This document shows positions 8,473 through 28,340 of a stretch of 64,000 bases of DNA, one piece after another (the first letter of the stretch is position 1; each line of letters opens with the position of its first letter). Both the position numbers and the translations under genes were made by a program. Origin of the DNA: Allobosea sp. Root483D1 (GTDB taxonomy: Bacteria > Pseudomonadota > Alphaproteobacteria > Rhizobiales > Beijerinckiaceae); assembly GCF_001429505.1 (NCBI RefSeq), contig NZ_LMJW01000022.1, positions 542,420-606,419 on the forward strand, written 5' to 3'. The notes under the pieces are model-generated. The model made no database searches. It was not told where the DNA came from and worked only from the letters and a program-made list of their open reading frames with translations.

Positions 8473-11400
8473 TCAGTCAAGCAAGGGCCAATGGGTCGCT
8501 CCCGAGCCGCTAAGTTTCTGAATGCGATAGCGCGATGTCTTCGGATCGGACCAGCGCGGTGAATCCGGCCAGCGAAACACGGCGCGTCGCCGCACCGCTG
8601 CGCCCAGCAGGTCATCGGGGTTGATGAGCTCGACGCGCGATGGCTGCGGGCTCCAGGCGAAACGCGGAGCGTGAACTGCCGTCGCGGCCCCGGTCTTCGT
8701 TTCCCGCAGCAGTGCGTAGCCCTCGGCGGGCGGTGGCAGGACCGGCTTCGATACGATCTTCACCGGCAACTCGATGACCGTCTCCTCGTTCGTCCCGGTG
8801 CGTTTGCGATGGACGACAATGTAGAGCAGATCGTCGGGCTGAAGAACGATCTTCGGTTTCGCCTTGTCCGCTTTGTCCCGGTCGAGGCGCAGATCGGAGA
8901 GCTTCAGGGTCGTTACGACGCGCTCCGCCACTGTGTCGATCAGCGTATCAAGGTCGAAGGCCACCAGCTCTGTCTTGTTGCCGTCGCGATCCTGCCGGCG
9001 CAGGGACAGGCGCGCCTCGAAGGTGCCCGCGACAACATCTTTGCGAGCGAGCACCAGGAGCAGCTCGCTGTCCGGATTGTACTCGCGCCGATCGCTCGCC
9101 AGCGTCGCATTGACGATCGTCGTGCCGGCATCGTCGCCGAACAGGCGACCCGAGCGCTGTGCGGGCGTCGACGTGAGCTGACGATTGTACGCCGGGTCCT
9201 CGAAGTGAACGACCCGCGGCTGCAGCGGCGCGCAGGGAATGCCCGGTCTGCGCACGCGCAGCGGAAAGCGCAGGGTTTGAAAATAGCCGTCGACGAAACC
9301 CTCGATCGCGCTCGCGGGCGTGTCGAGTCCGGTTTTCGGGGGAACCTTGATCTCGATCGATGCGGCGGCACCATGCGGTTGCCGCGCGACCCAAGCGTTC
9401 AGCACATCATCCTCGCCGAGACGCAGCTCGCTCCAGGACGTGGAAACCTTGAGATCCAGCTTGCGGCGGATGCCGTCGCCAACGAAGAAGGCGCTGAGTC
9501 CGAGCGTTTCCGGCGTGTGCTTTGGATCGTCCTTGGTGAGCGCCGTCCACGTTCCATTGCCGTCCTGCTCCAGCAGGTATTCCGCATCGAAATGCAAAGT
9601 CGGCAGTTGCGATCCTGCAAGCAATGACAGCTGGCCCGGCGCGGCATCGCTTAAGCGCAGTAGCAAGCCGAAGCGCCGGGGGCTTGGCGTCGCGCTGCCA
9701 TCGTCGGCACGGATCCGCACCGAGGCCAGATCGTAGATCGCGACATCCGTCAGGCATTCCGGCTTGTCGAGGCAATTCTTCTCCGCATGCCAGAGCGCAG
9801 CCCAGGGGCGGTGCGCACGCTCGACCTCGTTCTGTCGGTTCGGCGGAAGTGAAACCGGCCGCGGCATGCGCTGCTCCACGACGATCGATGCCGATGGCGT
9901 GAGCTGACCGCTCCCCGGCATCTCGGTCGTGGTCAGGACGCGCAAGGCCATGGGCGCTCCTGCGCGCGAACCGGACATCACCACGTCGACGCCGTGCGGC
10001 ATCACCGGCTGCCATTGCAGAATGGACGGCGGTGCCTTGCTGTCGGGTGCAGGAGGCTCGGGCGCGAAAGGAAGCGTCCTGAAGGACGGCCCACTCGCAC
10101 GCGCCTGTGCAGCAAGCCAGGCGGCGCGGGCCGGAGACCGGAAACCCGTCGGCAACAGCTTTCGCGGCTGCAGGGAGGTATCGTAGGCCACACGCGATGA
10201 CACAGCCTGCCACCACAACCGCGCCGTCGCATTGTCCTCGGGATCGATCCGGCGACCAACGATCGCCCTGGACGTTTCGGAGAGATTGCGAACGGCGAGC
10301 CGCAGCGCGCTCAGGCGCTGCCGGTCCGTCGGCCGGATCTCGCTCGGCAGGTCCTCGCTGTAGATCGGCTGAATGCCGGCGACCTGAGGCGGCGCGATTT
10401 CGAACGGCTGCAGCTTCGGCACAACACTGCCGCCGTATTGGCCTTCCGCAAAATGGACGTCCGCGACCGGGCTGCGCAGCGGTAGGGGCGGTGGATCGAC
10501 GGGCGCGAGCACCGTCGGCGTTGCCAGAAGATAGCCGTAGTCCACGGCCACCTGCGTCGGTGCCGCCGTCGATTGGGCGGTCCGCCGCAGGCGAATGACC
10601 GCAATCGGGCTCTCGGGCGCGAGCTGAGACAACAGCTCGATGGCCCATAGCCGAATCTTGTCCTCGCCCGGATCGCCCGGCCACATTCCCTGCGCCACGG
10701 GCTTGAGGACCGCGTCGCCGCCATCGTCGGCCGCCGCCGTTGCCAACACCTCGGCCAGCGTCAGCACGACGGATCTATCCTCCGGCGCGGTGTCGATGCG
10801 GGTCGACCCGAGACATCGGTAGGGGCTAATGGCGAGGCCGACCGGCTGGTTGTACGACTCCTGCGCTTGCGGCGGAGTGACCGGCACCAGAGTCGCCGAC
10901 GTCAGCACATGCTCGGCGACCTCAGGCCGCGAGGCGTCCCAGATGTCGCGCAGGAGATAGCCCGCCAGGAAGAAGGCTTGCGGCGAGCTCTTTGGCAGAT
11001 CGCCGATCATCTGAACGCCGAACCAACTCGCCTCGCGCCAGACCATCTCGCCCACATGCAGCAGGGGATTCCGCGGCCCGGTGCTCTCCTTTGGCGGCAC
11101 TCCGGACCGCTGCGCGCGGAAGGCACCGGTCAGCGCGCTGCGCCGGCTGAGGCGACCGGGACTGTCCTGCGGTGCGGAAGCTAGTAGCGGAGCAAAAGCG
11201 CTCACCGCTGCAGCCTCGAACGGGGGACGCTGGATCCGAAACCAGGCCTCCTCGAGCGCGCCCTCGCTCAGCCGATCCCAGCGGCTCGCGCCCGGCGCAT
11301 CGAATTCGCTGACGCGGACAACGATAGCCGCATTCTCGCTGCGGCAGGCGAGCGCGCACAGCGCCGGGTGGGATTGCGGCGGGTTGCGGGACAGCCTGAG

Positions 11401-14400
11401 CACCGGGTCGACAACCATGATCGATTTCGGCGTCGCCACTGTGTCGTTTGCGGGTGGCTGCATCCGGCCGACGAAGGGAAGGCCGAGCATGAGCCATGGC
11501 GGCTCCCTCGGATCGACGAGGCCGATGTCCTCCGGTGTTGCAAGCTCGGCGCGCTGCATCGCATTGGGAAGAAATTGCAAGGTCGTCATCGTGGGCTTGC
11601 GCTCGGACCGCGCGTCCGGACCCTTCAGCCAGAGCGGCACGCTGGCCTCGACCACCAGCGCATCGTCGCCGAGCAGCGCGACCTGATCACTCGGTTCACC
11701 GAGCTTGAGATGCTTCAGCCAGGCGGTGCGATGAAATGCCTGGAACGCCGCGCCAATGTTCACGCCCTCGCTCCAGCCCTTCTTGTCGGGCTGCAGTCCG
11801 TGGTGATCCGCGGCCGTCGAGGCCAGGAAGGTCGAGAAGTCGGCCGGTCGAACCAGCCGAACCTCCTGGACCGCGCTCCAACGCCAGCGCCTGTGCAATG
11901 TCACCTTCGACTCACCACCTTCGCTGCTGAGCGAGACGTCGGCAATCTGGTGCTCGGTAGCCGCTAAGAATTGGCCGGACTTGTCCTTCAAGCCGTAAAG
12001 AACCTTCCCGGAGCCCGCGCCGGAGCCGGTGGAATCGAGCTCGTGCTGATTGAAGAGAACGCGGACCGTATGGCGGAAATGTCGCCAGCCGTCGGCGCTG
12101 CCGTCACGTTGCGGAATGGTCACGCTAGGCGGCGTCAGCACTATTTCGACGCGGCGGTTCTGCCAGTTCGCGTCTTCGTCGTTCGAAACGACCTTCAGTC
12201 GCTGCTCGCCGTAGGGCACGACCGAGACACGTGGCTTCGGCGTGATGTTCTTGATGAACGGCCGAAGCTGGTTGCTGATTTCTACTGCACGCCGGTTCGA
12301 CAGCTCGTAATTGTCGCTCACCGGACCAGTGTCGTCCGCGTGGCCTTCGATGCGCACGTGGCCGCCGTGCTCCGCCAGGATCTTTGCGACCTCCTCGTAG
12401 GCCTTGGTCGCCGCCGCGGGATCCTCAGGGGTCTGCTCCGCCGTCTTGAACAGGAGTGCCCACCGCCTGAGAAGGGGCGAGTCGGTGCCGCTCGCACCCG
12501 GCCCACCGAGCGTGCTCGGCCAGGAAATGAGGTTTTTCACCTCGAGCCAACCGTTAAGTAGCGTGCGGCGCTCCCAGGACGCCGCTCCACCGCCCTTTGG
12601 CATCGCGCTGAGCAGCGTGCAGTTTGCGTAGAGATCGCCGGACGACGAGCCGAACGCCGCCGCCGGCTCAATCGGCTGGCCGGACGGCGAATCCTGCAAG
12701 GATGTCCCCCATCGACATGGGAGCAGCACTTCCGCAGCAGCGGCGGTCATGCGCAAGTCCGGGATCAGATCGGCGTTGTCTTGCACCGGCTGTGCCTGGG
12801 TTGCGGCGAACGACATGGCGAGAAAGCCGCGCGTCTGCTCCTTCGCCGTCCCGTCCAGTTGCGCTCCGGGCAGCAGCGACCAGGCGCTCGCATCGACATC
12901 CTCATCGAGGCTGAAGATGGCCTGTAAGCCGAGGGCGGGTGCCGGCTGCTGAGCCGACCCGCCGGGGCTGGAGAATGCAAGCCCCTCCGCTCCGGCCCTT
13001 GGCAGGACCTTGATCGCATCGAGGGCAACGCCGCCACGCGCCGGCCACACCTCGTAGGTTGCGACGGTTTCAATCGAAAGACCATCGGTATCGCCCCAAT
13101 GGAAGCCGAGGTCCATTTCGATCCGATGTTGCCGCGATGGTGCCGGAGCAGCGCGCAGGTCGAGCTCGAGTCCGATCCTCGTAACCTTGATCTCCGCCGT
13201 TCCCCGATCAAGTGTGGTCGCAGCGGAAACGGCTTCGCTCCCGTCGAAGGTGAGATCACCGAGTTTCACGCTCCACGATTGGCCGAAATGGGCAAACGAC
13301 AGGCGAACGTCCCCGAAGCGCAGGAACTTGGCCTCGACGAGCTGCACGGTTCGCCAAGTGACCAGAGGGCCATCCTCATCGGCCGTGAGAGTCCAGACCC
13401 CGTTCGCAACCGCGGATTTCACCCCGGACAGCACGAGCGGCGCGCCCGTCGTCCCGGTGAACGTGAGGCGGACCGCATTGGCCCGCTGCGTCTGCTCCAC
13501 GGTTCGTGGTTTCCCCGGCGTGACCGCGGGGGGGAGCGGCAAGGGTACCGTGAGCCGCGCCAAGACGGTGACGGTGAGCTCGTCTCCGTCGAACGTCACA
13601 TCCTCGAGTCCCAGGGGTTGCATGTCGAGGCCGCACAGCCGCATCGGCTTTTCAGTCGCGTCGATCGGCCCGAGCCACCACTTGTATCCCGACAGCGGGT
13701 TCAGTGTCCGGCCTTGCGCAGCAGGGTCGTTGACGTCCTCATGCTGATCGCTCAACACGTCCTCGCGTTTGAACTGCGTGCCGTTCTTCAAGGCGATGCC
13801 GGCGAGGAGAAGCTGCCAGGGCGTCGTGTCCCCGACCTTCAGCGGCACGGCCCGCAACCAATCGCGGATCGTCCACGTTTGTCCGTCCATTGCGATCGGT
13901 GTGTCGAGAAAGAGCGTCCCCTGGGTCGTGGATCCGCGCGACAATCCGCGTTGATCGCGGATCATCCCGTTAGCCGCCGGCTGCCACGCACGCATCGATC
14001 CCGCGATAATCTGGAAATCGCCGTCTTGCCGCGCAAGCCGACGGACCAGTGCACCGGCGGTGACGCCGAAATGCCCATCGAACCCGCGCAGTGCGCTCGT
14101 GCCCTCCAGAACCAGCGGCGCGCTTTTGTCCGCGTTGCTCAGCTGCAGGCGGCCCGGGTAACTCGCGAAATCCGCCTGGGGCGGTGCAATCGGCCAGTCG
14201 AGCGGCTCGATCAGGCCTCGCACGGCGAATGCCGGTGAGTTGGCATCCGCGTTGCGGTTGATGATCGCATCCGCGGCCTCGGTGCGCGCCAGGAAGCGCT
14301 TGGTCGACAACTCCCCCCACCACGCCTTGAAGTCGCGTCGCCCCAGCGGCCGCCGCTGCTTGTCCTCGGGTGCCGTGTGCTGCCTCCCTGAGAACAGGCC

Positions 14401-16545: not shown

Positions 16546-16550
16546 GGGCT

Positions 16551-19500
16551 CTAGAGGGGTTCGGGTTGAATGTCTTCAGCCGCTGCGACGAGCGGACAGG
16601 AGCCGCGCCGGGTACGCAGCGTTAGCGTTCCGCCGGCAAAGCCGGCATTCAGCGAGCATTGATAGAGACGCTGGATTGCCGCGCGCGCCGGTACCGACTG
16701 CGTCGCGAGCTGGGCGAACAGGGCGTCGGCGCGCTTGCGCGACAACAGCCCGGCCGACGCGAGCACGCTGCGACCGAGCAGAAGCTTGGTGGCGAGCTCG
16801 CCGACGTGAAGCTGGCTCTCGTCAGGGCGGGGGCGCCATTCGGGCTCGACGATCGCGACGGAGAGCGTATCGCATACGGCATGCAGCGCGATCAGCGCAT
16901 CGCACAGCTTTGGCGGCCAGTCTTCCAGAGGCTGCTTCACGACCTTCCACGCATCCGCGTCGAGCAATCCGGCGTCCTTGTCGAGCGTATAGTGGAACTC
17001 GTCTGGGTTTCCGGTGGGCGCGCCCTTCGTGACGTGGAGCACCGCGGGGAGGGCGCCCGGTACAGTGAACGTGGTCGACACGAATGCGATGCTTCGTGCT
17101 AGCGTTGCGGAGTCGAGCAGCGCTTCGAGCGTGCGATAGAATGGCGTCGACACCTTCCACGCACGCAATGCTTCATGCTCCTTCGCCGTCAGGTAGCCGC
17201 GCCAGGTGAGCGTGCGAGCCTCCGCGTCGAACAGCAGCCTGTTCTTGTCGTCTGTGAACCGGCAGACCTGCAGGATCTGCTCCAAACCCGCCGAGGCCCT
17301 GACTTCCGTGATCGCAGCTTGGGTGGGGCTGTCGGGTGCACTTGCGACCAGCGCGCGCAGCGCAGCGCCGAAATAAGTATCGCACGCGTCCGCCAGGTGC
17401 AGCAGGTGGTCGGCTTCAAACTCGGTGAGATGCCCGTTCAGCGCCAATGTCAGGCCGGACGGCGGCTTGACAGTGAGCGAGGTGCCGAACGCCGGGCCAT
17501 CGGCCTCGTCGAAGTCATAGCGGTCGCGCACGGCGGCTTCGATTGCCGGATGACCGAGCAACGCGTGCATTTGAACGCGCAGCCGGTAGCGATGCTCGTA
17601 GGGCTGGGGACCCGCAGGCGGAGCCGCAATGGTCGCCCGGAGTGTGGACTCGAAGCGCTGGCTCAGGTTCCGGAGTGTCCAGGCATAGCCTGCCTCGCTG
17701 CGTGTGAATGCGATCGCCGCCACAGCCTCCACCACGCCGGCCATCGGTCCGCCGCTGTGCACGATTTCGTAGCTGACGCCGACGTCGGGAAGCGCGGACA
17801 GCTTCGGTCGATACGGAGCGCCCGGGCCTGCAGCTTTCGGGTTCTCGATCTCCCATTTGGTCTTGGCCGGGAGGCTTTCCCAGAACGAATTCAGCCGCAG
17901 ATCGAAGACCAGCTGGGCGACGTCGCCCACCTCGCCGATGAAGGCGTCCTTGATCGGAATGGGCGCCGGGGAATGGAATTCGAACTCGCTGTGGCTCACC
18001 GCGATCGCCGGCGATGACACTGCGGCTGCCTCGGCCTTGAACACAGCTCGATGCTCGTAAAAGAACGGCAGGTCCTTCCATTGCAGCGCCACCGCATCGC
18101 GCTCGAACGGGTCATGACGGTCGCTCAGAAGCAACGTGCGCTGCTCGTTCGTCACCGATTTCGGATCGGTCGGAATCTCGATCCAGTCCGGCGCGCTGAC
18201 CGCGCCGGGCAAGCGCACATCCGGGTGCGGCTTGGACGGATCATCGGTCGACAGATAGGTATTTTCCACCAGCTCGACGTGCTGCCAACCGGTCAGCGGT
18301 TTGTCGCCGTGCTCGAATTTGCTGCCGAAGAACGCATCGATTTCGCGGATGTAGGCGAACCGGCGCACCAGCGCGTAGGCGACATGCTGAAACTCCATGC
18401 GCTGCGCCAAGGTGCGATTGCGTTCGCTCAGGGTCTGCTCGGGATGCTTGGCGAGGACGACCTCCCACACGGGAGAAGGTCTGGTTGCGCCATCGGCCGT
18501 CGGGGCATCGAGCCGGCGCGAGGAGAGCACGAGCGGTGGCGCGACGCGACGGATACGTGGTATCGCCACGTCGAGGCCACCCTTGCCGAGCGCGACCTTT
18601 TCCTTCAGTCCAAGCAGCGTCGTTACGTTCTGTTCGCGCTCCTTCGCAAGCGGGAACAGCACGGTGCTCTGCGCGAGCGCTAGCCAAAGCTGGTCGTAGC
18701 GTGACAGCGACTGCGCGAAGTACCGGAAGCCGTGCGCCCAGCCGTCGTCGATGATGTGATAGAGCTCGGTGCGCCCCTTGCGCGATGCCGCAAATCCAAC
18801 GGCGTTCGCTTGTGGGTATGAGGTGGCGAGCCACGGACCTTTGCCATAGCTCCACGGGCCTGCGGCTCCCTTGCTGAAATCGAAGTCGCCGCTGAAGTTG
18901 AAGAAGCGACGCGTCCAGTTGAGCGTCTTATCGGCGTTGAGCGTGTCGACCCAGTTGCGTCCGGTCGGGGTCTTCGCGCCGGCGAGCCGGAGATAGCGAT
19001 CGAGGCGCCACCAATGGCGCTGCGGTCCGTCCTGCTCCGGCTCGGGGCCAAGCTCGCTCCCCTCGACCAGATCGCCATCCGTCGGCGGCATGATCCACCG
19101 GTCCTTGATGTCGGGAAACAAGCGCAGCCGCTCGTCGTTCAGGCCGAGCGGGTTGAAGCGTGGCGTCGCGTAGGGCACGCCGGCCGTCACCGACACGTTG
19201 GGCTCGGTATCCGCCGTCGTTCGCATGACAAGGGTCACGCGGCCGCGAGCGCCTGTGGCAACCGTGGCGCTCGCTTCCGGATTGTCTTTGCTCAATGACG
19301 GTCCGGCGCCCGCCTGTCCGGGAAGGATGACGTCGACCTGCCATGCGTCCGGCGGAGAATCCGGCTGCTTGATCGAGATCGTGACGAATTCCGGGGTGTT
19401 CTGCGGATTTTCCGCCTCGAGCACGCAGACCTTGTACTGCATCACTGGGCGGATGGCCGGCCGCAGGCTGAACTGCACGAGCGCGAGCAGATCGTCCTCG

Positions 19501-22500
19501 GTCGGTCGCGCGTCCGGATCACTGTCGAGCCGAACGCTGCGGCCGGACTGGAACAGCAGCTCGACATGCAGGTGCTTGAACCATGTCTCGCTGTCGGTGC
19601 CCTTGTAGCCTCGCAACACCTCCCGCAGTAGGGTCCAGGCACGGTCGGCGAGTACGGCCTTGCCGTCGCGAATGGAGCGGAACGTCACGGCCGCGGAAAG
19701 GCCGAGCCGCTTCAACGCATTCCAGCCGTATGGATCGGCTCCGGGGGGCGTCTCGTCCTGCAGCGCCTCAAGGTCGGTCGCCTTTCCCGGCGGCAGCAAG
19801 GTCGGGTCCGATGCGACGCCGTAAAGGCGGGCGGTTTCAGCCGAAACGTCATCGGACGCCCGGTTCTCGATGTCGCAGATCAGCTGCTCGAGCAGCCAGT
19901 GCAGCTTGGCGCGCGGTTGCGACAGGACGACATCGATCACGCCGTTGTCCGGCGCGGGGATGGGGAAGGCCTCGAGCTGGAATGTGAAGCGCGGCGTATC
20001 CGAATTCGTGTCGGCTGCCTTCACCCATTTGATGCCATTGTGGCGCGGCGCCGCAAAACCGGAAATCTCGAGCGCAGCGCAACCAGCGAGCTGGTTCAGC
20101 CGCGCCTTGCGTTGCTCGCGCTGGGCTAGCGACCAGTTAGCCGGAGGCGCCGCAAATGTCAGCGTCAACACGCCCGGTGCTATGGTCACCGTGGCGCGCT
20201 CGGCCAATGCGGCCGGTTCCTCGCCTGCGTCGCGCATCTCTTCCCACCCCCGCGGCAGCGCCGGCCACTCGAGGTAGGAGTCGCGCCAGGAGAACCAGTT
20301 CGACAGCCAAGTGTCCGTGCCGCGCCCGGTCGATATCGCCTCCTGATCCTGCTCGCGCAGGCTCAGGCGTCGCGCGCTGCTTGGATACCAGGCTTCCCAT
20401 TGATCGGGTGCAAGGTTCTCGCGCGGCGAAAGCGGCAACTGATCGGTCGGAAGCAGGCGAAGCTCACGAATTTGCCGGGTCAGGGCGAAGAAGCGCTCGA
20501 GGTCAAGAGTCGGATCCTCCAGCGCCTCCGCGGTATCGGCATCGACGTCGAATTCGAACAGGCGGAAGGCCGAGAGCAGCTCACGCTGCCACAGCGGCGC
20601 AGCCGACGGCGTGACATTCCAGCCCAGACGCGCAGCGCGCCATTGCTTGGGATGCGGCAGGAAGCCCAGCGGCTGATCTGCGAGCTTAGGTTGGTCGAGA
20701 TCGAACACGACAGGGCTGCCGCCGGCCGCGAAAGGCCGGGGCACGTTCGCAGGAGAAGCATCGGCCCGTCCGTCGAGAGGATCGCTAATGACCGGGGCCG
20801 AGGGACGGAAGATCCATTCAAGCAGCTCCGGCCGCCGTTCCTCGGTGCGCTCGTCCAGCGTGAACGCGATCCGAAGCTTGGCGGGAGACAGTGCGGAGGG
20901 AACATTGTCGGCGGAAACCGTCTGCATGAAGGCACGCCAAGCCGACGGCCGCCAGTCGCCGGCGGATTCGCTGGAGGAGGGCGGCACGGCGCCCTTGCGC
21001 GCGAATGCGTCCAGCAGGAGCTCGCCGGCGCCGCTGGTGAGCCACTGCTGCCGCTCCCGACCGGCGTGATCGCCGTTCGCCGTCTTGTCGGCCGTTTCGG
21101 CGTCCCCGGCCTGGCCGAGTTCGATGACGATGTCTCCGGGCAGGACGCGGGCGTTGCTGGCGGGCGCGGACTGGCGCGGATTTTCGCTAGCTGCGTCGGC
21201 CGGATAATTGCCGATCGGCAGCGTGCGCTCGCGGCGCAATACAAGGCGCCACCTTTCGGGAGCCGGTTCGTAGACCGCATCGGAGAGCGCCGGCTTCAGC
21301 GCGCTGATGACGATCGACTGCGGCTTGAGCAGCCGATCGGCCAGCGGCGTGGCGCTCGCGACGGGCTTAAAGTCGATTCTCGCGAGCTGATAGCGGATCT
21401 CAACGTCCGCATCCTCCGGGGCAGGAGGCGGCTGTTGCGGGCGGCGTTCAGCGACGATGCTCAGCGAGCGCCGGCTGGGCTGCCCGGCGAGATCGATGGG
21501 CGTGATGGTGTAGAGATAGCGCCGGCTGCTGCCGAGCAGAGCGAGATCCTCGGCAGTCTCTTCGCGGAAGTTGTCCACGAACTGGAAGCGCGCCGGCAGT
21601 GTGATGAGCTTGCCGACCGCGCGATACTGGATCGCCGTGCGCTTGACATAAAAGTGCTGGTCGGACCCCGTCGTCCCGATCGGGCGGCGCACGACGTGAT
21701 AGTGACGCAAGTGATGCTCGGGCTCATCCGTGGTGGCCGTCGACCGCGGCCACCTGATCTCCCAATTGATGGCAACGGTTGACGCCGACGCGACCTGCCG
21801 GATGCGATCGAACGAGGGCGGGTGGGCGACGAAGCTGGTTTCGCTGCTGTTGTAAGCCCGCACCTTGCGACTACGCGACGTGCTCGGCGTGGTGGCGGCC
21901 TGACCGTCGCGCTGCCAGATCTCTCCTCCGTCGGTGTTTGCTTGCTTTTCGAGCCAGGGCGGCGTGGGCTCCTTGTAGCGGAACACGAGGCCGCACAGAA
22001 ACGCGACCGATTTCTCTTGGAATTTCTGCAAATCTTCGTCGGTTGCGTTCCGCGCGATCAGCTCGGCATAGGTCTTGGCGTCCTCGATCAAACCGTTGAT
22101 GATCGTGCTGCGCAGTTCATGCGCCTGCTTCTGCGCCAGCATTGCATCTGTCTGCTCCTCGTCGCCCTCGGGTACTCGACCGGAGTCGGCATAGAGTGTC
22201 GTCTTGTCGTTGAAACCATTCAGGAGCTGCTGCTCATAATCCACATACGGGTCGTGCCTGAGATACGGCGAGCCTTCGAACTGCTCCACGGTGCCGCGCA
22301 CGCTGGCCTCGTAGGCGGCGTCGGACGGATCGCCCACTCGAGGGTCGGTAAGCGGAGCGTCCTGATCCAGGATGTCGAGGTGCTCGGGATCCCGGAACAA
22401 CTCGGATTCTCCCGGCTTGCGTGGAATGAACGCTGCCTCCATCAAATCTCGGAACGTCGGAATCTGCGGGGCCTGGCTGGCCGGCGGCTGGTCGTTCGTG

Positions 22501-25500
22501 CCGACCGGCGCGTTCCATTCGATCGCCCAGTTGAAGCGGCCGGTTTGATGGGGGACCCACCTGTTCGTCTTTGCGTCAAATCGCTCGATCTTGCTGGCAA
22601 GCCCGGCTGGCGGCTCCCAGATGAAGTCGACGAAATCACCCGTCGGCAGGTCTTTAGGAGGCACGGGGAGGAAGCCAAGGGTTTCCTTGGCACCCTCGCA
22701 CGGCGCCTCCAGTTGCCGCGCGCTCGGAACGAGCACGAGCAGGTAGGGTGTCTCACTATTTTTCGACGGCACCGGCACGGTGAGAATGTCGTAGTCCGGC
22801 AAGGCGAAACACGGGGCCTCGACTTTGATCGGGTCCGGGGCGAGCGCAGTCTCGGGCCCCCCGAGTGTGACGAGGGGAGCGAATGCTTTCATCGTCCGTG
22901 CCGGCGTTTCGCCCGGCAACGGTTCGACCTCGGTGGCTTCGAGGCCGACGTTCAGGAACGGCTTGGCGATTGCGGCGGCGCGATCCACCGTGCCTTCGAA
23001 AATGCCGACATGGACATTGAAGCGCAGCGAGCGTCCCATCAGCCCGATGCTGAGGGTTGCGGTGCCGCGGCAGCCGGGGATGGCATCAAGGGTGGCCCCG
23101 ACCTCGAGAAGAGCGGTAAACCCGATCTCGAAGCTGAATCCGAAGTTGAGCGTGATCTTGCAGAAACCAATCTTGATGCGGATCCACAAAGCGATGCCGA
23201 CGCGCACGTAGATTTCAAGCCCTACCGCACCATAGAACGCCGAACGATCGAGGCGATCGAAGCCCACAACCGCGATGTAGCGTGCACCGAACGCGACGCG
23301 TGCTGTCGCCGTGAGGCTGGCGCCGATCGCGCCCGCGTCGAAGCCGGCCGATATCTGCAGCGAGCCTCGTCCCTCGAAGCTGAAGCCCTGCACCATCTCA
23401 TGAGGGGTGATGCGGGTGATCGAGCCACCGCGGCACTCGATCATCAACGGGCCGATGCTCATGCCCCAGCGCAGAACGTTCGGCCAGCCGAGCTCGAGGT
23501 GGAACAGGTTGGGCTCGATCAGCAGCGTCGTCGAGTAGTGAGAGGCCCGGAGCGCCTCCTTCGCGAAATCCCACATCGGCGGATGGTCGCCGAAAGCCGG
23601 ATCGGGCTGGGATGCGGCATGCGCCAGCAGCCGATGCTTGCGCGGCTGGAATAGCGCGTAACCAGCGACCAGCGGCCGTTCGCGAACGCCATTGGTGTCC
23701 TTGTCGAAATCATAGTAGTTCGTGTACAGCCATCCGCGCACGGTCATGAAGAACGTGAAGTCGGTTCGCAGTGCCAACACTGCGTCCATTAGGAAGACGT
23801 TGGCGAGCTTGCGTTCCGCCGACTCCTTCCAGTCGGTCACACTGCCGGCTGCGCTCGCGGTGGACAGCATCGCGCGCATCGCGATGGTCCAGCGCGGCTT
23901 CTCGTCCGGCTCCTCGATATCGAGCCGCCATGCGGAGACGTTCGAGAGATTGCCCTGGCTGCCGGCAAGCTTGTCGAGCTCGCGGATGAGCTGCTTGATG
24001 TCGTTGGTCTCATCCGCGGCCTTGATCATCGCCAGCGTGTAGCGGTAGCCGAAGCCCAGTCCGACCTCCCGGATGTAGATCGGGATCGGCGCGGGAATCT
24101 GGATGCTGAGATGGCGCACTTCCGCATAGAGGAACCACGCGCGCTCCCAGCGATATGGCTCCGGTCGCAGGACGCGCAGGAACGCGAATGTTGCGCTGAT
24201 CTTCGGTAGCCCCATCATTGTAACGGCGCCCATTCCGCGAAACCCGCGGGCACGCCATCCGGGCTCGATTTCATCGCCCTCGAGGAAGTCGATCATTCCC
24301 TCGAGCTCGAAGGCCTCGCCCGCACGTAGCTTGAGCCCGAGATTGCGGCACCTCAATCGCGGGAAGAATCCGCCGGGCTCGGGCAGGGCGACCAGCATGT
24401 TGTGGAAGTCGAAGCGCGCGTCAACGACGTCGCCGCCGTCCACCGCGAACTTGATTTGGCCACATAGCTGCATCGCGGCGGGACGGTCCTCCCAGTGCTC
24501 CGATCCGGGGTCGAAGCCGAGCCCGCGCAGCTCGAACTCAAAGCAGCCGAGGAAGGAGAACTTCGCTTTCTTCGGCATCTCGACGTGGAATTTGATGTGG
24601 TTGCGCAGTACGCGGGCATCTCCCGCGAGCGGGCAGTCGACGAACTGCATCTCGATTCTCGGCAGCCACGCCAGCGGTCCTTCTGCGTCGTCGCCATCGA
24701 GCAGCACGAACCGTGCAGTGCCCGTGAGTGTGAAGTAGAGATGATAGTCGCCATGGTCGTTGACGAAGCGCAGTCCGATGCCGTCGATCGAGAATTCGAA
24801 CCGCGTTCCTTGGCAGCGCAGCAGATTCTTGCCGGTGAGTTGGGCCGCGGCCGAGATCAGCTCGAGGTTTCCGCTCGCCCCCTGGCCGAACTGTAGTGCA
24901 ATGTTTGCGGTCGCTTCGCCGACCAGATCGGGAGGCAGCTGGCCCGCGCCGGTAACCGTGAAGCCGGTGATGCGATTGTCGCGGACCTGGAAGGACGCGC
25001 CGCTGAATTCGAATCGCGTGGCGACACCGTTCAAGAGTGCGCTGCACTTCTTCATCGAGGCGTCGAGGCTGATGCCGCCCGGGCCGATGGCGAAACCGCT
25101 GACCGCAAACACCAGCGGCTCCGACGGAGAGGTGAGCCGCGTGAAACGTGCCTCGATCAGCGATCCTTCGGCCTGCTTCAGCAGGAAATTGTCGCCGGCG
25201 AGAATGAGGTCGAACAGCTTGCCGGCGGTGTTGCCGGTGAAGCGCCAGTTGAGGCCGAGGAAGTCCAGCTCGCGTGGCTCCGGCAGCTTCAGGCTGATCG
25301 TGCTCAGCCCATCGGCCGAGAACGCGAAACGTTCCCAGTTGAAGTTGAGATCGCCGTCGGCCTCGAGATCGAACTTGCCGGCGCCGGTCATGGCGCCCAG
25401 ATGCAACATCAGCTTGAGCGGAACCTTGAAGCCAGGCAGGGTCCAGTCGATTGTGGCCGGCTTCGCATCAATCTCCAGATACTGCTTCCACGCCTGAAAG

Positions 25501-27074
25501 CCGTCGCGCTTGAAGAAAGGTAACTTCGACGGATTGATCTTGATGGTGGCGGCGATGTCCTTTTCGGTAATCCGCTCGAGCTGCGAGATCGGCGCGGACA
25601 GGGTCGCGTTGTCGCTGAAGTCAAGGGGTGGGAGAGGGTATTGCGTTTTCCGGAAGAACTGAGGCTTGCCTTCTCCCAATTCCAACGTCGTAAGGGCGAG
25701 CGTTGTCCAACCCTGTTCGTCCCGCGCATCGGTCGGGCCATCCTCGTCATCGACCGCGGTGAGAACCGGAGCTAAAGGGGCGGGCGCCGGGTCGTCCGGT
25801 GGCAGGATCGTGGCGGAGAGCTCAAGCAACCGCGACGCGTCGGCGTCGTCGTCACCATGCAGGTGTCGCGGGTCGTCGGCTGTTGACAGTGCGAACGTGG
25901 TGTACGCCGTTGCGACCTCATTGCCGGCAAATGTGGAGAAGAGTCCCGTCCTCCACTGTTCTTCCGCTCTCCAGACCACCATCGACCAGTGGCGCGGCTG
26001 CGGCACATCCACGGCGAAGCCGGGCAGCGTTACGGTCCACGCATCGGCGACGCCCGAGGGCCGGTAATCCAGACGCACCTCGGTCAACTCGCCGTCGTCC
26101 CGCAGCAGCCGGATGGCAATCTCCGCATCGTCCTTCAGATCCGGCACGAGCGCTTCAGGCAAGATCAGGGTGAGCCACTGCTCCAGCTGTCTTCCCGTCC
26201 ACGCGACGGCGACGCACTCGTCCGACCGGTACCAGTGCTTGATGTGCAGTTTCGTCGACGGCTGTCCCTGCAGCTCGATGTAGCTCCCGATAGTAATTTC
26301 GCCGTTGTCCAATTCCAGATGCAGCGTTGCCTCGATCGCGCGGCCGGTCGGCCCCTCGACGCGCAATCCGACGATTTCGAGCACCAAGGTATGATCGTTG
26401 TTGGCCGGATCCTTCTCGAACAGCGCAACGCGCTGCCAACTGAGCTTCAGGAACAGGGACGGAAACTCGAGTGCCGGCCAGCCCATGCTCCACGGGAAGG
26501 ATGGCAAGGACGGTAGGCCCGAACTGCCGGGTGGCCAGGGCCAATCGAAATCAGGCCATTCGAACGCGACATTTGGCATCCGCAGCCTCAGCCTAGGCAG
26601 CGTCACCGAGGGCAGCACTGGCAGCTGGTCGAAAGTCAGCTCAAAGCATGCCGCCGCGCTCGCAGCGACCGAAATGCCGCCACTGACGCCCAATTCAATT
26701 TGGCCGCAGACGTGCAATGTGAGCTCGGTATCGAAATGAGCAGCGTCGTATCCGACGATCGTCAGCTCAAGCTCGGCGCTGTAGCCGGCCGTATTGCTGA
26801 ATTTGCGTCCGAGGAAATCCAGGGGGCCGGACGACGCGTCTCGGAATGATGCTGAGACGAAGAACGCCATGCCGGGCTGAGGGCTGAGCCGCCAATCGCC
26901 GCCTGACGGAGCGAGGGCTGTCGTTGGAATCTTCGGTTGGGGCGTCAGTGGATAGCTTGTTGTCGCTCCGCCGCGCTCAATTAGCAGTGCGCTGGCTACC
27001 CATTCAGGACCGGCCGTCGCGCCGTCGAGCGACACCGTTGCATCTGCGTTTTGATAGAGAATGAGTTTCGCCAC
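16551..27074 (-). CDS. Giant 3507-aa beta-rich protein with FN3-like segment
   Basis: Middle gene of the operon, GTG start with GAGG upstream, 6 bp after the preceding stop. No signal peptide. Residues ~100-1200 contain many long amphipathic beta stretches (for example GKFDLEADGDLNFNWERFAFS). Around 1240-1360 is a Gly-rich, strongly alternating region (SAGFDAGAIGASLTATARV, IGFCKITLNFGFSFEIGF) that resembles a beta-barrel, beta-groove or DUF6603-like array. Residues ~1760-1880 look fibronectin type III-like (LRHYHVVRRPIG, YLYTITPIDLAGQPS). The C-terminal half mixes beta segments with helical stretches. I cannot assign a family. The uninterrupted frame of over 10 kb and the tight spacing argue for a real, maintained product that works with the other two operon members. 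Confidence 0.7.
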   Translation of the reverse strand: MAKLILYQNADATVSLDGATAGPEWVASALLIERGGATTSYPLTPQPKIPTTALAPSGGDWRLSPQPGMAFFVSASFRDASSGPLDFLGRKFSNTAGYSAELELTIVGYDAAHFDTELTLHVCGQIELGVSGGISVAASAAACFELTFDQLPVLPSVTLPRLRLRMPNVAFEWPDFDWPWPPGSSGLPSLPSFPWSMGWPALEFPSLFLKLSWQRVALFEKDPANNDHTLVLEIVGLRVEGPTGRAIEATLHLELDNGEITIGSYIELQGQPSTKLHIKHWYRSDECVAVAWTGRQLEQWLTLILPEALVPDLKDDAEIAIRLLRDDGELTEVRLDYRPSGVADAWTVTLPGFAVDVPQPRHWSMVVWRAEEQWRTGLFSTFAGNEVATAYTTFALSTADDPRHLHGDDDADASRLLELSATILPPDDPAPAPLAPVLTAVDDEDGPTDARDEQGWTTLALTTLELGEGKPQFFRKTQYPLPPLDFSDNATLSAPISQLERITEKDIAATIKINPSKLPFFKRDGFQAWKQYLEIDAKPATIDWTLPGFKVPLKLMLHLGAMTGAGKFDLEADGDLNFNWERFAFSADGLSTISLKLPEPRELDFLGLNWRFTGNTAGKLFDLILAGDNFLLKQAEGSLIEARFTRLTSPSEPLVFAVSGFAIGPGGISLDASMKKCSALLNGVATRFEFSGASFQVRDNRITGFTVTGAGQLPPDLVGEATANIALQFGQGASGNLELISAAAQLTGKNLLRCQGTRFEFSIDGIGLRFVNDHGDYHLYFTLTGTARFVLLDGDDAEGPLAWLPRIEMQFVDCPLAGDARVLRNHIKFHVEMPKKAKFSFLGCFEFELRGLGFDPGSEHWEDRPAAMQLCGQIKFAVDGGDVVDARFDFHNMLVALPEPGGFFPRLRCRNLGLKLRAGEAFELEGMIDFLEGDEIEPGWRARGFRGMGAVTMMGLPKISATFAFLRVLRPEPYRWERAWFLYAEVRHLSIQIPAPIPIYIREVGLGFGYRYTLAMIKAADETNDIKQLIRELDKLAGSQGNLSNVSAWRLDIEEPDEKPRWTIAMRAMLSTASAAGSVTDWKESAERKLANVFLMDAVLALRTDFTFFMTVRGWLYTNYYDFDKDTNGVRERPLVAGYALFQPRKHRLLAHAASQPDPAFGDHPPMWDFAKEALRASHYSTTLLIEPNLFHLELGWPNVLRWGMSIGPLMIECRGGSITRITPHEMVQGFSFEGRGSLQISAGFDAGAIGASLTATARVAFGARYIAVVGFDRLDRSAFYGAVGLEIYVRVGIALWIRIKIGFCKITLNFGFSFEIGFTALLEVGATLDAIPGCRGTATLSIGLMGRSLRFNVHVGIFEGTVDRAAAIAKPFLNVGLEATEVEPLPGETPARTMKAFAPLVTLGGPETALAPDPIKVEAPCFALPDYDILTVPVPSKNSETPYLLVLVPSARQLEAPCEGAKETLGFLPVPPKDLPTGDFVDFIWEPPAGLASKIERFDAKTNRWVPHQTGRFNWAIEWNAPVGTNDQPPASQAPQIPTFRDLMEAAFIPRKPGESELFRDPEHLDILDQDAPLTDPRVGDPSDAAYEASVRGTVEQFEGSPYLRHDPYVDYEQQLLNGFNDKTTLYADSGRVPEGDEEQTDAMLAQKQAHELRSTIINGLIEDAKTYAELIARNATDEDLQKFQEKSVAFLCGLVFRYKEPTPPWLEKQANTDGGEIWQRDGQAATTPSTSRSRKVRAYNSSETSFVAHPPSFDRIRQVASASTVAINWEIRWPRSTATTDEPEHHLRHYHVVRRPIGTTGSDQHFYVKRTAIQYRAVGKLITLPARFQFVDNFREETAEDLALLGSSRRYLYTITPIDLAGQPSRRSLSIVAERRPQQPPPAPEDADVEIRYQLARIDFKPVASATPLADRLLKPQSIVISALKPALSDAVYEPAPERWRLVLRRERTLPIGNYPADAASENPRQSAPASNARVLPGDIVIELGQAGDAETADKTANGDHAGRERQQWLTSGAGELLLDAFARKGAVPPSSSESAGDWRPSAWRAFMQTVSADNVPSALSPAKLRIAFTLDERTEERRPELLEWIFRPSAPVISDPLDGRADASPANVPRPFAAGGSPVVFDLDQPKLADQPLGFLPHPKQWRAARLGWNVTPSAAPLWQRELLSAFRLFEFDVDADTAEALEDPTLDLERFFALTRQIRELRLLPTDQLPLSPRENLAPDQWEAWYPSSARRLSLREQDQEAISTGRGTDTWLSNWFSWRDSYLEWPALPRGWEEMRDAGEEPAALAERATVTIAPGVLTLTFAAPPANWSLAQREQRKARLNQLAGCAALEISGFAAPRHNGIKWVKAADTNSDTPRFTFQLEAFPIPAPDNGVIDVVLSQPRAKLHWLLEQLICDIENRASDDVSAETARLYGVASDPTLLPPGKATDLEALQDETPPGADPYGWNALKRLGLSAAVTFRSIRDGKAVLADRAWTLLREVLRGYKGTDSETWFKHLHVELLFQSGRSVRLDSDPDARPTEDDLLALVQFSLRPAIRPVMQYKVCVLEAENPQNTPEFVTISIKQPDSPPDAWQVDVILPGQAGAGPSLSKDNPEASATVATGARGRVTLVMRTTADTEPNVSVTAGVPYATPRFNPLGLNDERLRLFPDIKDRWIMPPTDGDLVEGSELGPEPEQDGPQRHWWRLDRYLRLAGAKTPTGRNWVDTLNADKTLNWTRRFFNFSGDFDFSKGAAGPWSYGKGPWLATSYPQANAVGFAASRKGRTELYHIIDDGWAHGFRYFAQSLSRYDQLWLALAQSTVLFPLAKEREQNVTTLLGLKEKVALGKGGLDVAIPRIRRVAPPLVLSSRRLDAPTADGATRPSPVWEVVLAKHPEQTLSERNRTLAQRMEFQHVAYALVRRFAYIREIDAFFGSKFEHGDKPLTGWQHVELVENTYLSTDDPSKPHPDVRLPGAVSAPDWIEIPTDPKSVTNEQRTLLLSDRHDPFERDAVALQWKDLPFFYEHRAVFKAEAAAVSSPAIAVSHSEFEFHSPAPIPIKDAFIGEVGDVAQLVFDLRLNSFWESLPAKTKWEIENPKAAGPGAPYRPKLSALPDVGVSYEIVHSGGPMAGVVEAVAAIAFTRSEAGYAWTLRNLSQRFESTLRATIAAPPAGPQPYEHRYRLRVQMHALLGHPAIEAAVRDRYDFDEADGPAFGTSLTVKPPSGLTLALNGHLTEFEADHLLHLADACDTYFGAALRALVASAPDSPTQAAITEVRASAGLEQILQVCRFTDDKNRLLFDAEARTLTWRGYLTAKEHEALRAWKVSTPFYRTLEALLDSATLARSIAFVSTTFTVPGALPAVLHVTKGAPTGNPDEFHYTLDKDAGLLDADAWKVVKQPLEDWPPKLCDALIALHAVCDTLSVAIVEPEWRPRPDESQLHVGELATKLLLGRSVLASAGLLSRKRADALFAQLATQSVPARAAIQRLYQCSLNAGFAGGTLTLRTRRGSCPLVAAAEDIQPEPL

Positions 27075-27080
27075 GAGACC

Positions 27081-28340
27081 TCACGGCAATTGCGGGTCGA
27101 ACGGTATGTCCCAACTCGTGTACCAAGTATTCAGATGGAAGTTACGCCTACGCTCGTCGGCTTCGCTATTCTGCTTCTCGACCTGCTTTTGCTTTTCGCT
27201 TTTCTTGTCCTCGGCGGGCTTCTTCTTGATCCAGAACTTCCTCGCCCGCTCTTTAAATTCCTCGAGTAATTCCTGCTCGGAAATGGTGGGCTTGTCCTTG
27301 GTGATTTCGGCGTACCAGGCTTTGGGTTTACCCCCATGCTGATTGACGAGGTCGAGCGTGAAGATCACGCCCTTTTCCGATTTGATTTTCTCTCCGCCCC
27401 ACTGCAGCAAACCCTCGCCCTGGATCTTTGGAAAGCCAGCCGGATACTCGGGAGAGTTTTCGTCGTACATCCGCCGGATCGTTGCGAGTGCGAAGTCGAA
27501 CATCAGTTGCTGAAACAATCGGCTATTCAGCATGTTCTGGAAGCACTGATACCAGTTCTTCTTGCCGGGATCGGGCCGCGCGAACTCCAGGTCCCGATCG
27601 ATGCTGTCGCCCTGCTTTCGTCCTTCCGGAGGAGGGTTGTCGTCAGAGTAGAGCGCAGCCTTGGCCTTTTCGAGATGAGCGATGACCTTCTTGATGTTCT
27701 CGTGCTTGGCGCCGGGTTGATCACCGAACAGTTTCGCGAGCTCATCAGCCTCTTGCTGATAGAAGTATTTGATCGGCTCCGCGAGCCTTCCGGGTTTTTG
27801 CGCCCAGTGTATGATGCCAAGCGAGAGCCCAGCGAAATCCTGATTTCTATTCGTCGTTTCGAATTTGCAGGCGCATTCCTGGGAAGCAATCAGAACCAGC
27901 GCTTTAAGGAGGTGCGTGAGCCTCTTGTCTTTGGCGAAAAGGAAATAGCCCGGCGTGACGAAGGGGCTCAACCGAGCTGGAGACAGAAGCATCGACTGCA
28001 GGGTTAATTTATCGACGGCTCCGTCGGTGTTTAGCGCCCATGGTGGATTTTCGCGCGTATTCCACTTTCGCTGAAATCCGCGGACGAGTCCCACTGTGCG
28101 ATCGGTATATTCGCCGTAGACGCCTTGCCCCTTCTGCGAACCTCTAAGAAATAACGGGGCAGCTTCCCGCAATCCTCGACCTTTTGGCAGATATTCCTTG
28201 ATCGGCTCTATGCTGGGGTACCAGCAATGCAGTAGGTCCTGGATAGCGCCGATCGCGAATTGATCAGTTTCATCCGGCCCGATCGGCCCGGAAGTTCCCG
28301 CCAAAAGCCCGTCAATTCGCTCGATTCCCGTCGGGCGCAT
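27081..28340 (-). CDS. Peptidoglycan-binding-like / lysozyme-chitosanase-like protein
   Basis: 419 aa, first large gene of the giant operon, with AGGGG upstream of the ATG. Residues ~28-118 resemble a PG_binding_1-type repeat (AIQDLLHCWYP, DRTVGLVRGFQRKW, NTDGAVDKLTLQSML). Residues ~145-320 resemble the lysozyme/GH46 chitosanase superfamily: an ASQE motif with Glu155, a second Glu161, then DFAGLSLGIIHW, a pattern like the DGxGxSxGxxQW block after the catalytic Glu in such domains. The C-terminal ~60 residues are highly charged (KKKPAEDKKSEKQKQ), possibly coiled. No signal peptide is seen, so any cell-wall role needs a non-Sec exit route, lysis or delivery by partners. It could be the wall-active component of the operon. 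Assignment is by eye and moderate. Confidence 0.6.
   Translation of the reverse strand: MRPTGIERIDGLLAGTSGPIGPDETDQFAIGAIQDLLHCWYPSIEPIKEYLPKGRGLREAAPLFLRGSQKGQGVYGEYTDRTVGLVRGFQRKWNTRENPPWALNTDGAVDKLTLQSMLLSPARLSPFVTPGYFLFAKDKRLTHLLKALVLIASQECACKFETTNRNQDFAGLSLGIIHWAQKPGRLAEPIKYFYQQEADELAKLFGDQPGAKHENIKKVIAHLEKAKAALYSDDNPPPEGRKQGDSIDRDLEFARPDPGKKNWYQCFQNMLNSRLFQQLMFDFALATIRRMYDENSPEYPAGFPKIQGEGLLQWGGEKIKSEKGVIFTLDLVNQHGGKPKAWYAEITKDKPTISEQELLEEFKERARKFWIKKKPAEDKKSEKQKQVEKQNSEADERRRNFHLNTWYTSWDIPFDPQLP

Follow-up and report, generated by a model that had tools for sequence, protein, structure and literature searches.

We asked what is encoded by an operon of one small and two giant genes in a 64,000-nucleotide stretch of DNA from Allobosea sp. 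Root483D1 (hereafter the window), and whether it belongs to any described system. A reading made from the sequence alone had reported three minus-strand frames with spacers of 5-6 bp, and all three were found open and complete: the small first gene P0001 (27081..28340; 419 aa, ATG start), giant 1, P0002 (16551..27074; 3507 aa, GTG start), and giant 2, P0003 (8473..16545; 2690 aa, ATG start). They are separated by 6 bp (27075-27080) and 5 bp (16546-16550) respectively, confirming an intact minus-strand operon. The accompanying claim of an accessory region also held: the giant-1 core is present in 1 of 61 searched genomes of the genus, namely the window's own, GC content is 0.58-0.67 across positions 1-36000 as against 0.65-0.70 rightward, and the setting is rich in defence genes.

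The suggested search of the neighbourhood for caspase and defence genes returned several. Adjacent GajA (1417-3255, E 8.7e-228) and GajB (3239-5062, E 5.2e-231) are predicted to form a Gabija system, separate from and outside the giant module, and a ThsB-like TIR gene (E 2e-19) also lies in the window. The convergent neighbour of the operon (5712..8351, plus strand) encodes an 879-aa caspase-domain protein (Peptidase_C14, E 7.3e-6), a candidate module member at most, while the divergent neighbour (28572..30944, plus strand) encodes a 790-aa protein that resembles a tyrosine recombinase by eye and is 64% identical to the product of a gene adjoining an Agrobacterium copy of the giants. Caspase, CHAT, C25 or trypsin genes occur near some of the other giant pairs as well. 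Defence genes may be nearby simply because plasmids and islands gather them.

The view that no described system has this composition was borne out, with none named in Pfam, NCBIfam, PHROGs, PDB, PADLOC (run without P0002) or literature searches. P0002 had no family match in Pfam, NCBIfam or PHROGs at E<=1, the PHROGs matches of P0003 included none with a named function, and P0001 matched none of the PADLOC 2.0.0 models in a scan that covered P0001 and P0003. PDB sequence searches with P0001, A1, A2 and A3 as queries gave chance-level rows or nothing. No sensor or NTPase domain was found by Pfam in the giants scanned (P0002 and P0003 at E<=1; 18 giant-2 and 13 giant-1 proteins at E<=0.01). The internal OmpA-like domain proposed for the last protein was recovered: residues 1379-1470 of giant 2 (12136..12411, minus strand) form an OmpA/MotB-like peptidoglycan-binding domain, matched by Pfam over aa 1379-1464 (E 9.4e-8; 32.8 bits, where the cut-off is 27.2). 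Of 18 giant-2 proteins scanned, one has this domain and the other 17 have no match, and apart from it neither giant is named by the families tested.

The largest protein had been described as beta-rich with an FN3-like part. The first half of this description agrees with the modelled part of P0002 (aa 480-1400), which is almost all beta; the second is unconfirmed, since no FN3 profile in Pfam matched P0002 at E<=1. The conserved core of giant 1 (aa 524-1388; 22911..25505, minus strand), which is 32% identical to a Bradyrhizobium plasmid protein, models as a long antiparallel beta-sheet. The structural matches listed for the core model included porins, VDAC, LptD and viral models, and were kept only as a description of a long antiparallel sheet, with membership of any of these families set aside. 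Searches of phage records and IMG/VR found no relatives of the core. A model of the giant-2 N-terminus was of poor quality (pLDDT 53) and its PDB matches (best E 0.027) were left unused.

This core model bears on one alternative, that the giants build an envelope-spanning apparatus or surface structure for whose assembly the enzyme opens the wall. Specialised transglycosylases open the wall in this way for flagella and for type III and type IV secretion systems, and such enzymes are normally exported and conserved. The OmpA domain of the window's giant 2, the wall enzymes beside the pair in many loci (below), the membrane proteins near some pairs and the resemblance of the modelled core to the long beta-meander of outer-membrane barrels would fit such an apparatus. 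However, the barrel matches are loose (query TM-scores <0.2; rmsd values of 13-17 A for the top ten VIA rows), and by a crude hydropathy rule neither window giant carries an export signal, giant 1 having one TM-like stretch and giant 2 no TM segment. The neighbour enzymes are, moreover, mostly leaderless and exchanged, unlike the usual assembly enzymes. We regard an apparatus of this kind as distinctly unlikely, and the earlier suggestion of a surface structure found no evidence, neither giant beginning with an export signal.

Relatives of giant 1 were found in 32 further loci, with lengths of 3190-4116 aa among the 28 measured, the window included. The pair was surveyed in 33 loci, again including the window, from Alpha-, Beta- and Gammaproteobacteria and one Binatia MAG; 11 of these are plasmid records, and in the annotated ones seen the giants are labelled merely 'hypothetical protein'. 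In all 30 loci that show the place of giant 2, its gene is the one directly downstream of giant 1, and the giant-1 and giant-2 identity matrices of 25 loci correlate closely (Mantel r 0.973, a value reached by 0 of 2000 permutations). These data show that the fixed, co-inherited unit is two adjacent giant genes, a pair rather than a trio. The idea that all three genes travel together fails because none of the other genomes searched yielded the 419-aa gene, and the enzymes of other loci differ from it. Strong selection, also proposed from the sequence, is supported for relatives of the pair by dN/dS values of 0.17-0.27 (four close giant-1 pairs) and 0.18-0.32 (three close giant-2 pairs). Some copies are damaged, with both giants in pieces in L005 and giant 2 split over two frames in L007 and L009.

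We then considered the small gene. P0001 has no match in Pfam, NCBIfam or PHROGs at E<=1, so that the description of a wall-binding plus lysozyme-like protein stays a by-eye reading. By eye and by position, P0001 may begin with a repeat that binds peptidoglycan and continue with a lysozyme-like stretch, making it a putative muramidase-like orphan. It contains no TM-like stretch by the hydropathy rule, and its gene was found in 1 of 398 genomes, the window's own, with no relatives on plasmids or in IMG/VR.

The link to the cell wall that had been proposed was instead upheld by other genomes, in which wall-type enzymes adjoin the pair. Neighbour genes exceeded the Pfam cut-off in 9 of the 33 loci (the L,D-transpeptidase family YkuD, Amidase_6, M23 and papain-like C70 twice each, Tae4 once); C70 is counted here as wall-type, its action on walls being a candidate one. 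Weaker signs point to a wall-type enzyme in 11 further loci, seven by weak match or homology and four, including the window, through a reading by eye or homology to a case so read. Two loci carry a different enzyme (L024, L027), two end at contig ends, and in the remaining nine (L005, L008, L016, L019, L021, L022, L028, L029, L031) no wall-type enzyme was seen near the pair in the part of the ORFs scanned. Inspection by eye of parts of the L027, L028, L029, L049, L050 and L051 regions likewise found none there. We set aside an 872-aa frame in L043, which lacks any Pfam match and looks like antisense.

Comparison of related loci shows that the neighbour gene is interchangeable, with a predicted peptidoglycan-active enzyme fold in many of them. 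L003 and L004, whose giants are 81% and 79% identical, carry a YkuD gene and an M15-like remnant, respectively; L024 and L027, whose giants are 59% and 48% identical, carry a glutamine deamidase and a trypsin. Of 17 enzyme genes examined, 14 have no membrane or export segment by the hydropathy rule. Together these data suggest that the giant pair and its variable wall-type enzyme constitute an undescribed mobile conflict system aimed at the cell envelope.

The association might still be coincidental, the giants being an unrelated mobile pair with another role. The nine loci without a wall enzyme are consistent with this, as are the varying position of the enzyme, up- or downstream of the pair at distances of up to 1.5 kb, and the presence of an annotated enzyme in just three of nine plasmid regions. 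Against it, 3 of the 159 non-giant features in those nine annotated regions are named L,D-transpeptidase, papain-like protease or M23 peptidase, in a count that left out the names M48, M12, M20, C25, caspase and trypsin, and all three lie within two genes of the pair. When 16 neighbour enzymes were searched against the loci by tblastn, 12 of 12 cross-locus matches fell within 1.5 kb of a giant pair; these represent eight distinct locus pairs, two of them close relatives, and the flank within 1.6 kb of a pair makes up 92 of 514 kb, a distance cut picked after the distances were seen. We therefore consider coincidence very unlikely.

The identity of some neighbours raises two further alternatives. 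Tae4 and Tlde1 are T6SS effector families; the neighbour in L052 is a Tae4 (Pfam E 1.7e-10) and that in L041 resembles Tlde1 by a motif seen by eye. The giants could on this basis be adaptors or carriers of effectors in a T6SS cargo module, and TssC/VipB (PF05943) occurs in 12 of 22 pair-bearing genomes, among them the window's, where it lies 182 kb from the window's end. In the other 10 it was not seen; several of these are drafts or MAGs, but G162 is 100% complete. Pfam also detected neither VgrG nor PAAR nor Hcp in any giant scanned. A T6SS cargo role seems highly improbable.

The same neighbours are typical antibacterial warheads, which would suit a weapon against other bacteria: the giants would be a particle or shell carrying a leaderless wall enzyme, freed by lysis of some cells in the manner of type 10 secretion and delivering to competitors. 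The absence of an export signal from the window's giants accords with this, and release through holin/endolysin/spanin lysis, described for Tc toxins in sections of a published report (PMC10847048), offers a parallel. L010 and L021 encode small proteins that are related to each other, begin with what looks like an export signal and could confer immunity, but immunity-like genes recur in at most two loci by ORF clustering. Nor do the giants scanned contain a receptor-binding, RHS or Tc domain, and no holin or spanin family was matched in the genes scanned, short ORFs being left out. Use against competitors thus appears unlikely, if less so than the apparatus.

Membrane genes may point towards the producer's own wall. 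Multi-TM genes are denser near the pair (1.20 per 10 kb) than farther away (0.38), with one within 2.5 kb in 14 of 31 loci and none in 17, the window among the latter. This rule overlooked one gene with two TM segments, which lies in L028 immediately upstream of giant 1 and by eye resembles SLATT domains. Divergent genes of ~610-660 aa, first suspected to be caspase- or CHAT-like, turned out to be a multi-TM family without Pfam matches. In L010, L020 and L055, TM segments are fused to a weakly recognised hydrolase-like domain; the matches are weak in L010 (CHAP E 0.029, with Thiolase_N better at 0.0092) and L020 (CHAP E 0.049), and L055 has a motif by eye, its only Pfam rows, PpoB2 and ABA4-like, both falling below the cut-off. 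Because of these fusions and the density of multi-TM genes near the pair, we favour action on the producer's own wall.

These data allow us to propose a horizontally spread, undescribed conflict module in which the two giants carry or control an exchangeable effector that cuts peptidoglycan, a reading to which we give somewhat less than an even chance. The two giants would form one large, cytoplasm-made complex that holds or gates the enzyme, and the OmpA domain of the window's giant 2 would tie that protein to the wall. The trigger, guessed from the defence-island setting, may be phage infection or envelope damage, whereupon the enzyme would reach the periplasm and cut peptidoglycan, most likely the producer's own, leading to cell lysis. 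The pair would thus be the conserved machine and the enzyme a swappable warhead, P0001 in the case of the window. Counted against this module are the nine loci in which no wall enzyme was found, the two with a different enzyme, the absence of a family for P0001, the single OmpA domain, the 17 loci with no multi-TM gene nearby, the weak matches behind the TM-fused hydrolases, the failure to find a sensor or NTPase domain in the giants scanned, the tendency of plasmids and islands to gather defence genes and the broken copies.

A bolder form of the proposal, which we hold tentatively and think doubtful, is a new class of protein machine: two leaderless giants would build a particle of several hundred kDa, a shell or sheet in form, to hold a peptidoglycan hydrolase of interchangeable type and deploy it on a trigger. 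As a plug-and-play device for attack on the envelope or for suicide, the machine would travel on plasmids and defence islands among the Proteobacteria and have no relation to T6SS, Tc toxins, contractile injection systems or phage tails. If the proposal is true, the giant genes, ~19 kb of coding sequence at each locus, become one coherent system with an exchangeable wall-cutting warhead, a giant two-protein machine would be a new architecture of bacterial conflict, and the slot beside the pair offers a route to new peptidoglycan hydrolases. The role of the wider uncharacterised DUF6603 giants would also become testable. Overall, the sequence-only reading was partly supported: it held for the absence of a described system from the libraries searched, the wall link and the defence-rich region, failed for the trio and found no support for the FN3-like part or the surface structure.

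The giant-1 core is probably a distant relative of the uncharacterised DUF6603 (PF20248), judging from profile comparison. By hhalign the core aligned with DUF6603 at E 2.8e-5 (probability 74) and 5.8e-4 (probability 29), as against E 0.69 for giant 2 as a control; given these probabilities, the profile homology is only moderate. One of 10 core members matches the DUF6603 model (E 0.0012). No match was seen in the window's genome at E<=0.001, in P0002 itself at E<=1 or in 13 full giant-1 proteins at E<=0.01, and when DUF6603 proteins were searched with HMM profiles of the giants, scores stayed at noise level or close to it (best E 0.0018 and 0.0074, from five proteins). DUF6603 giants (3247-3390 aa) likewise sit in gene rows, but a giant-2-like gene was found in none of seven DUF6603 regions examined, and a literature search found no paper mentioning DUF6603.

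We finally compared the pair with known systems. A match to a Tc-type apparatus was looked for and not obtained, there being no Tc, SpvB, RHS or neuraminidase-like domain in P0002 or P0003 (Pfam E<=1) or in 18 giant-2 and 13 giant-1 proteins (E<=0.01). The nine annotated plasmid regions contain no gene named as the sheath, tube or baseplate of a contractile injection system. With its OmpA domain, giant 2 hits ZorB/MotB models of Zorya (E 2.9e-8), but ZorB has a TM helix and a ZorA partner, whereas the 2690-aa giant 2 has no TM segment and 17 of 18 giant-2 proteins lack the domain. T6SS effectors resemble the neighbours in L052 and L041, but such genes here stand beside two giants, in a set of genomes of which 10 of 22 show no TssC. 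Leaderless peptidoglycan hydrolases, sometimes beside a membrane gene, recall type 10 secretion and phage lysis cassettes, with the leaderless giants as possible cargo; hydrolase-type genes without a TM-like stretch occur in many loci, in the window only as the by-eye case. As differences, no holin or spanin family was recognised in the genes scanned, and 17 of 31 loci, including the window, show no multi-TM gene within 2.5 kb. A published parallel to the proposed module is given by the NTP-dependent and EAD-coupled conflict systems of Kaur et al. 2020 (PMC7159879). The STAND, MoxR, GTPase and EAD domains were not found in the giants scanned, and giants like this pair do not appear in the sections of that paper drawn on here. 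Those sections describe variable effectors, lysozyme- and papain-like enzymes of peptidoglycan among them, as well as OmpA domains that bind the wall and trypsin fused to STAND, and the giant pairs share with these systems variable wall enzymes, an OmpA domain in the window's copy and, near some pairs, caspase, CHAT, C25 or trypsin genes.

On the window sequence, the three minus-strand frames of the sequence-only reading are confirmed: P0001 (419 aa, 27081-28340), P0002 or giant 1 (3507 aa, GTG start, 16551-27074) and P0003 or giant 2 (2690 aa, 8473-16545), with spacers of 6 and 5 bp. The OmpA domain assigned to P0003 was recovered at aa 1379-1464 (Pfam E 9.4e-8). The FN3-like part suggested for the largest protein drew no support from any profile, and searches of Pfam, NCBIfam and PHROGs at E<=1 gave no match to P0001 or P0002.

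Relatives were collected by several routes. A search with P0003 found a single full copy in its own genome, and tblastn led from it to three plasmids, two with a second giant frame adjoining (L003, L004) and one with broken frames (L005). P0002 is 32% identical to a Bradyrhizobium plasmid protein over 894 aligned columns (E 4e-123). Its conserved section, the giant-1 core (aa 500-1400), was matched in 11 of 72,556 plasmid records and in none of 50,697 phage records, and two IMG/VR scans, one with P0001 and one with the core, gave no relatives. Scanning contigs of 84,980 species with a core alignment (A1) yielded 21 loci, a lower bound because the scan relies on short peptide patterns; L025 among them is the same plasmid as L012. 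One further locus (L055, genome G162) came from the order search, and the total is 33 with the window counted. Within the genus one genome of 61 carries the core, within the order 3 of 297 do, and a draw from the phylum gave 3 of 398; these samples overlap, and each includes the window's own genome. The titles of the records mention Bradyrhizobium, Mesorhizobium, Rhizobium, Sinorhizobium, Neorhizobium, Azospirillum, Microvirga, Methylocella, Agrobacterium, Tardiphaga, Rhodovulum, Emcibacter, Cupriavidus, Undibacterium, Zoogloea, Methylomonas and Pseudomonas, as well as MAGs, including one of Candidatus Binatia.

The idea that the three genes travel together held for the giants but not for P0001. 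Giant 2 lies directly downstream of giant 1, in the same orientation, in all 30 loci where its place is visible; in L026, L033 and L034 the contig stops ahead of it. P0001 relatives were absent from plasmids, IMG/VR, the fetched loci (the window alone matched) and 397 other genomes. In 29 of 33 loci giant 1 is complete as a single frame (the others being L005, where it is broken, and three loci cut at a contig end), with lengths of 3190-4116 aa among the 28 that were measured, all but L013. Giant 2 is likewise complete and uninterrupted in 27 of 30 loci, namely 24 of the 25 loci of the identity comparison below plus L012, L013 and L055; L007 and L009 have it in two frames, and in L005 it is broken. 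The gap between them is -17 to +13 bp in the 8 loci with both giants in one fetched stretch. Across 25 loci, pairwise identities of the two giants are correlated (Mantel r 0.973, reached by 0 of 2000 permutations), to which shared host descent could contribute. Close pairs among the relatives gave dN/dS (NG86) of 0.17, 0.17, 0.27 and 0.27 for giant 1 and 0.19, 0.18 and 0.32 for giant 2. From this adjacency, correlation and dN/dS, the giant pair is a real unit under selection. In L007 (28946-36600), giant 2 takes the form of two frames (1281 and 1271 aa) with a few-base overlap near the protein's middle, possibly a natural division into two halves.

What recurs is the position beside the pair, not P0001 itself. 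Neighbour enzymes exceed the Pfam cut-off in 9 of 33 loci (7 without counting C70): YkuD L,D-transpeptidase in L003 (E 2.3e-8) and L034 (E 5.1e-5), Amidase_6 in L038, of L014 (E 6.6e-7), and L054, of L032 (E 2.1e-6), Tae4 in L052, of L030 (E 1.7e-10), M23 in L012 (E 2.3e-19) and L018 (E 2.2e-10), and papain-like C70 in L011 (E 4.6e-8) and L013 (E 9.7e-11). The Amidase_6 gene of L038/L054 has a dN/dS of 0.086 (NG86). Seven more loci fall below the cut-off or are linked by homology: L009 (YkuD E 2.6e-4; 55% identity to L034), L039, of L015 (NlpC E 0.028), its 50% relative L006, L023 (M23 E 0.0055), L007 (26% identity to the C70 of L011), L020 (CHAP E 0.049) and L010 (CHAP E 0.029, with Thiolase_N better at E 0.0092). 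Four wall-type cases were called by eye. P0001 carries what we take to be a PG_binding_1-like repeat, then a stretch presumably akin to lysozyme-like proteins; L041, of L017, has a motif we regard as Tlde1-like; L055 has a presumed M15-like motif that gave no Pfam M15 match; and L004 retains a 43-aa remnant 70% identical to L055. Two loci hold different enzymes, Gln_deamidase_2 in L048, of L024 (E 1.2e-27), and trypsin in L049, of L027 (E 2.7e-12), the latter with an export-signal-like start by eye. No wall enzyme was found in the flanks, partly read and by eye, of L005, L008, L016, L019, L021, L022, L028, L029 and L031; L026 and L033, cut at contig ends, stand outside this tally. By a hydropathy rule, 14 of 17 enzyme genes have no TM-like stretch (exceptions L010, L020, L055). 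Close giants can carry unlike enzymes: those of L003 and L004 are 81% and 79% identical with YkuD versus the M15-like remnant, and those of L024 and L027 are 59% and 48% identical with deamidase versus trypsin.

Searching 16 enzymes by tblastn against the loci, L005, L026 and the regions of DUF6603 (an uncharacterised Pfam family, PF20248) being counted apart, gave 12 cross-locus matches in 8 distinct locus pairs, two of them close relatives. All 12 lie <=1.5 kb from the giant pair, with 92 kb of flank searched inside 1.6 kb, a cut set after the distances were known, and 422 kb outside. L005, L026 and the DUF6603 regions had no match to the tested enzymes at E 1e-4. The nine annotated plasmid regions contain 159 features besides the giants, of which 3 bear the name L,D-transpeptidase, papain-like protease or M23 peptidase; each of these 3 is <=2 genes from the pair.

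Membrane genes near the pair were counted as well. Excluding L005 and L026, multi-TM frames by a hydropathy rule that missed the L028 two-TM frame and an L020 frame number 1.20 per 10 kb (17) <=2.5 kb from the pair versus 0.38 (14) farther away, and occur near it in 14 of 31 loci; the window has none. Among these frames is a divergent multi-TM family of ~600-660 aa upstream of giant 1 in L008, L014, L019, L021, L031 and L032, split into two frames in L008 and in L021; four members were scanned against Pfam with no match, and it is a possible membrane partner. The frames also include related TM proteins of L009, L012 and L022, of which that of L009 is Ig-like. Directly upstream of a Pseudomonas giant 1, L028:7196-7702 encodes a 168-aa two-TM protein that by eye presumably resembles a SLATT domain; part of its end recurs at L029:7151-7669. 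Next to two pairs, L010:15997-16515 and L045:1392-1865 encode proteins of 172 and 157 aa that share 43% identity and begin with a stretch like an export signal; they are possible immunity proteins.

The survey for caspase or defence genes found them in the window and around other pairs. In the window, an HNH gene precedes an entire Gabija pair (263-5062; GajA 1417-3255, GajB 3239-5062; very strong PADLOC matches), and a gene with a caspase domain is convergent with giant 2. A TIR-like gene of the window (31546-32514) matches ThsB models (PADLOC E 2.3e-19), and divergent from P0001 stands a recombinase-like gene (by eye) with 64% identity to one beside the Agrobacterium pair. Regions of other pairs contain AbiE, Avs1c, CHAT, C25, caspase, STAND or UvrD genes. 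Directly 3' of a Pseudomonas giant 2, L050:3912-8069 encodes a STAND NTPase of 1385 aa that also has an S1 domain.

The giant-1 core model (22 sequences; pLDDT 78.9, pTM 0.54) is nearly all strands, the longest of 24 residues. Foldseek against the PDB placed LptD on top (E 4e-7, query TM 0.15), then ApoB100 and ushers; VIA-align placed VDAC, an usher and porins on top, with Z <=12.2; its ten best rows have an rmsd of 13-17 A. Strand hydropathy alternation is 2.50 versus 1.45 +- 0.19 shuffled, although soluble sheets may show likewise. We read the predicted core as a single long antiparallel meander, either closed or open. A giant-2 N-terminal model was discarded as too weak. The core's sole family link is DUF6603: one of 10 members matches it at E 0.0012, and profile-profile comparison gave E 2.8e-5 and 5.8e-4 against 0.69 for the control. 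The link is not clearly visible in plain HMM searches, and we found no paper on this family. DUF6603 giants of 3247-3390 aa stand in similar gene rows in L064-L068, in the order 143-296 aa gene, giant and, in at least 4 of 5, a ~700-aa frame; five accompanying genes scanned in L067 had no Pfam family at E<=0.1. These rows may be another undescribed system. Close to a DUF6603 protein of shorter length (1560 aa), a gene at L070:18700-19911 has a phage tail-collar look by eye, a hint of a tail-like or surface role for such rows.

What we observe is a fixed pair with a swappable, often wall-type neighbour, mostly without a membrane or export segment, in a mobile, defence-rich setting. We propose that the two giants would form one complex with the neighbour enzyme as its warhead. 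The target may be the producer's own wall, as suggested by a handful of enzyme versions that are linked to the membrane and by the absence of a recurring immunity gene, and the trigger could be phage or envelope stress. TssC is present in just 12 of 22 pair-bearing genomes, the window's own among them, and therefore a type VI secretion system (T6SS) is not needed. Among the matches listed for giant proteins, peptidoglycan hydrolases and conflict or defence systems, subscription papers being mostly outside, titles and abstracts do not describe the pair. We rate the giant pair with its swappable neighbour as a new composition of putative function. Zorya depends on ZorB binding the wall (PMC11890865), and the giant Tc toxins are freed by lysis (PMC10847048). 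The nearest published logic that we found is that of conflict systems with lysozyme- and papain-like peptidoglycan enzymes among their effectors, another group of which contains OmpA domains (PMC7159879).
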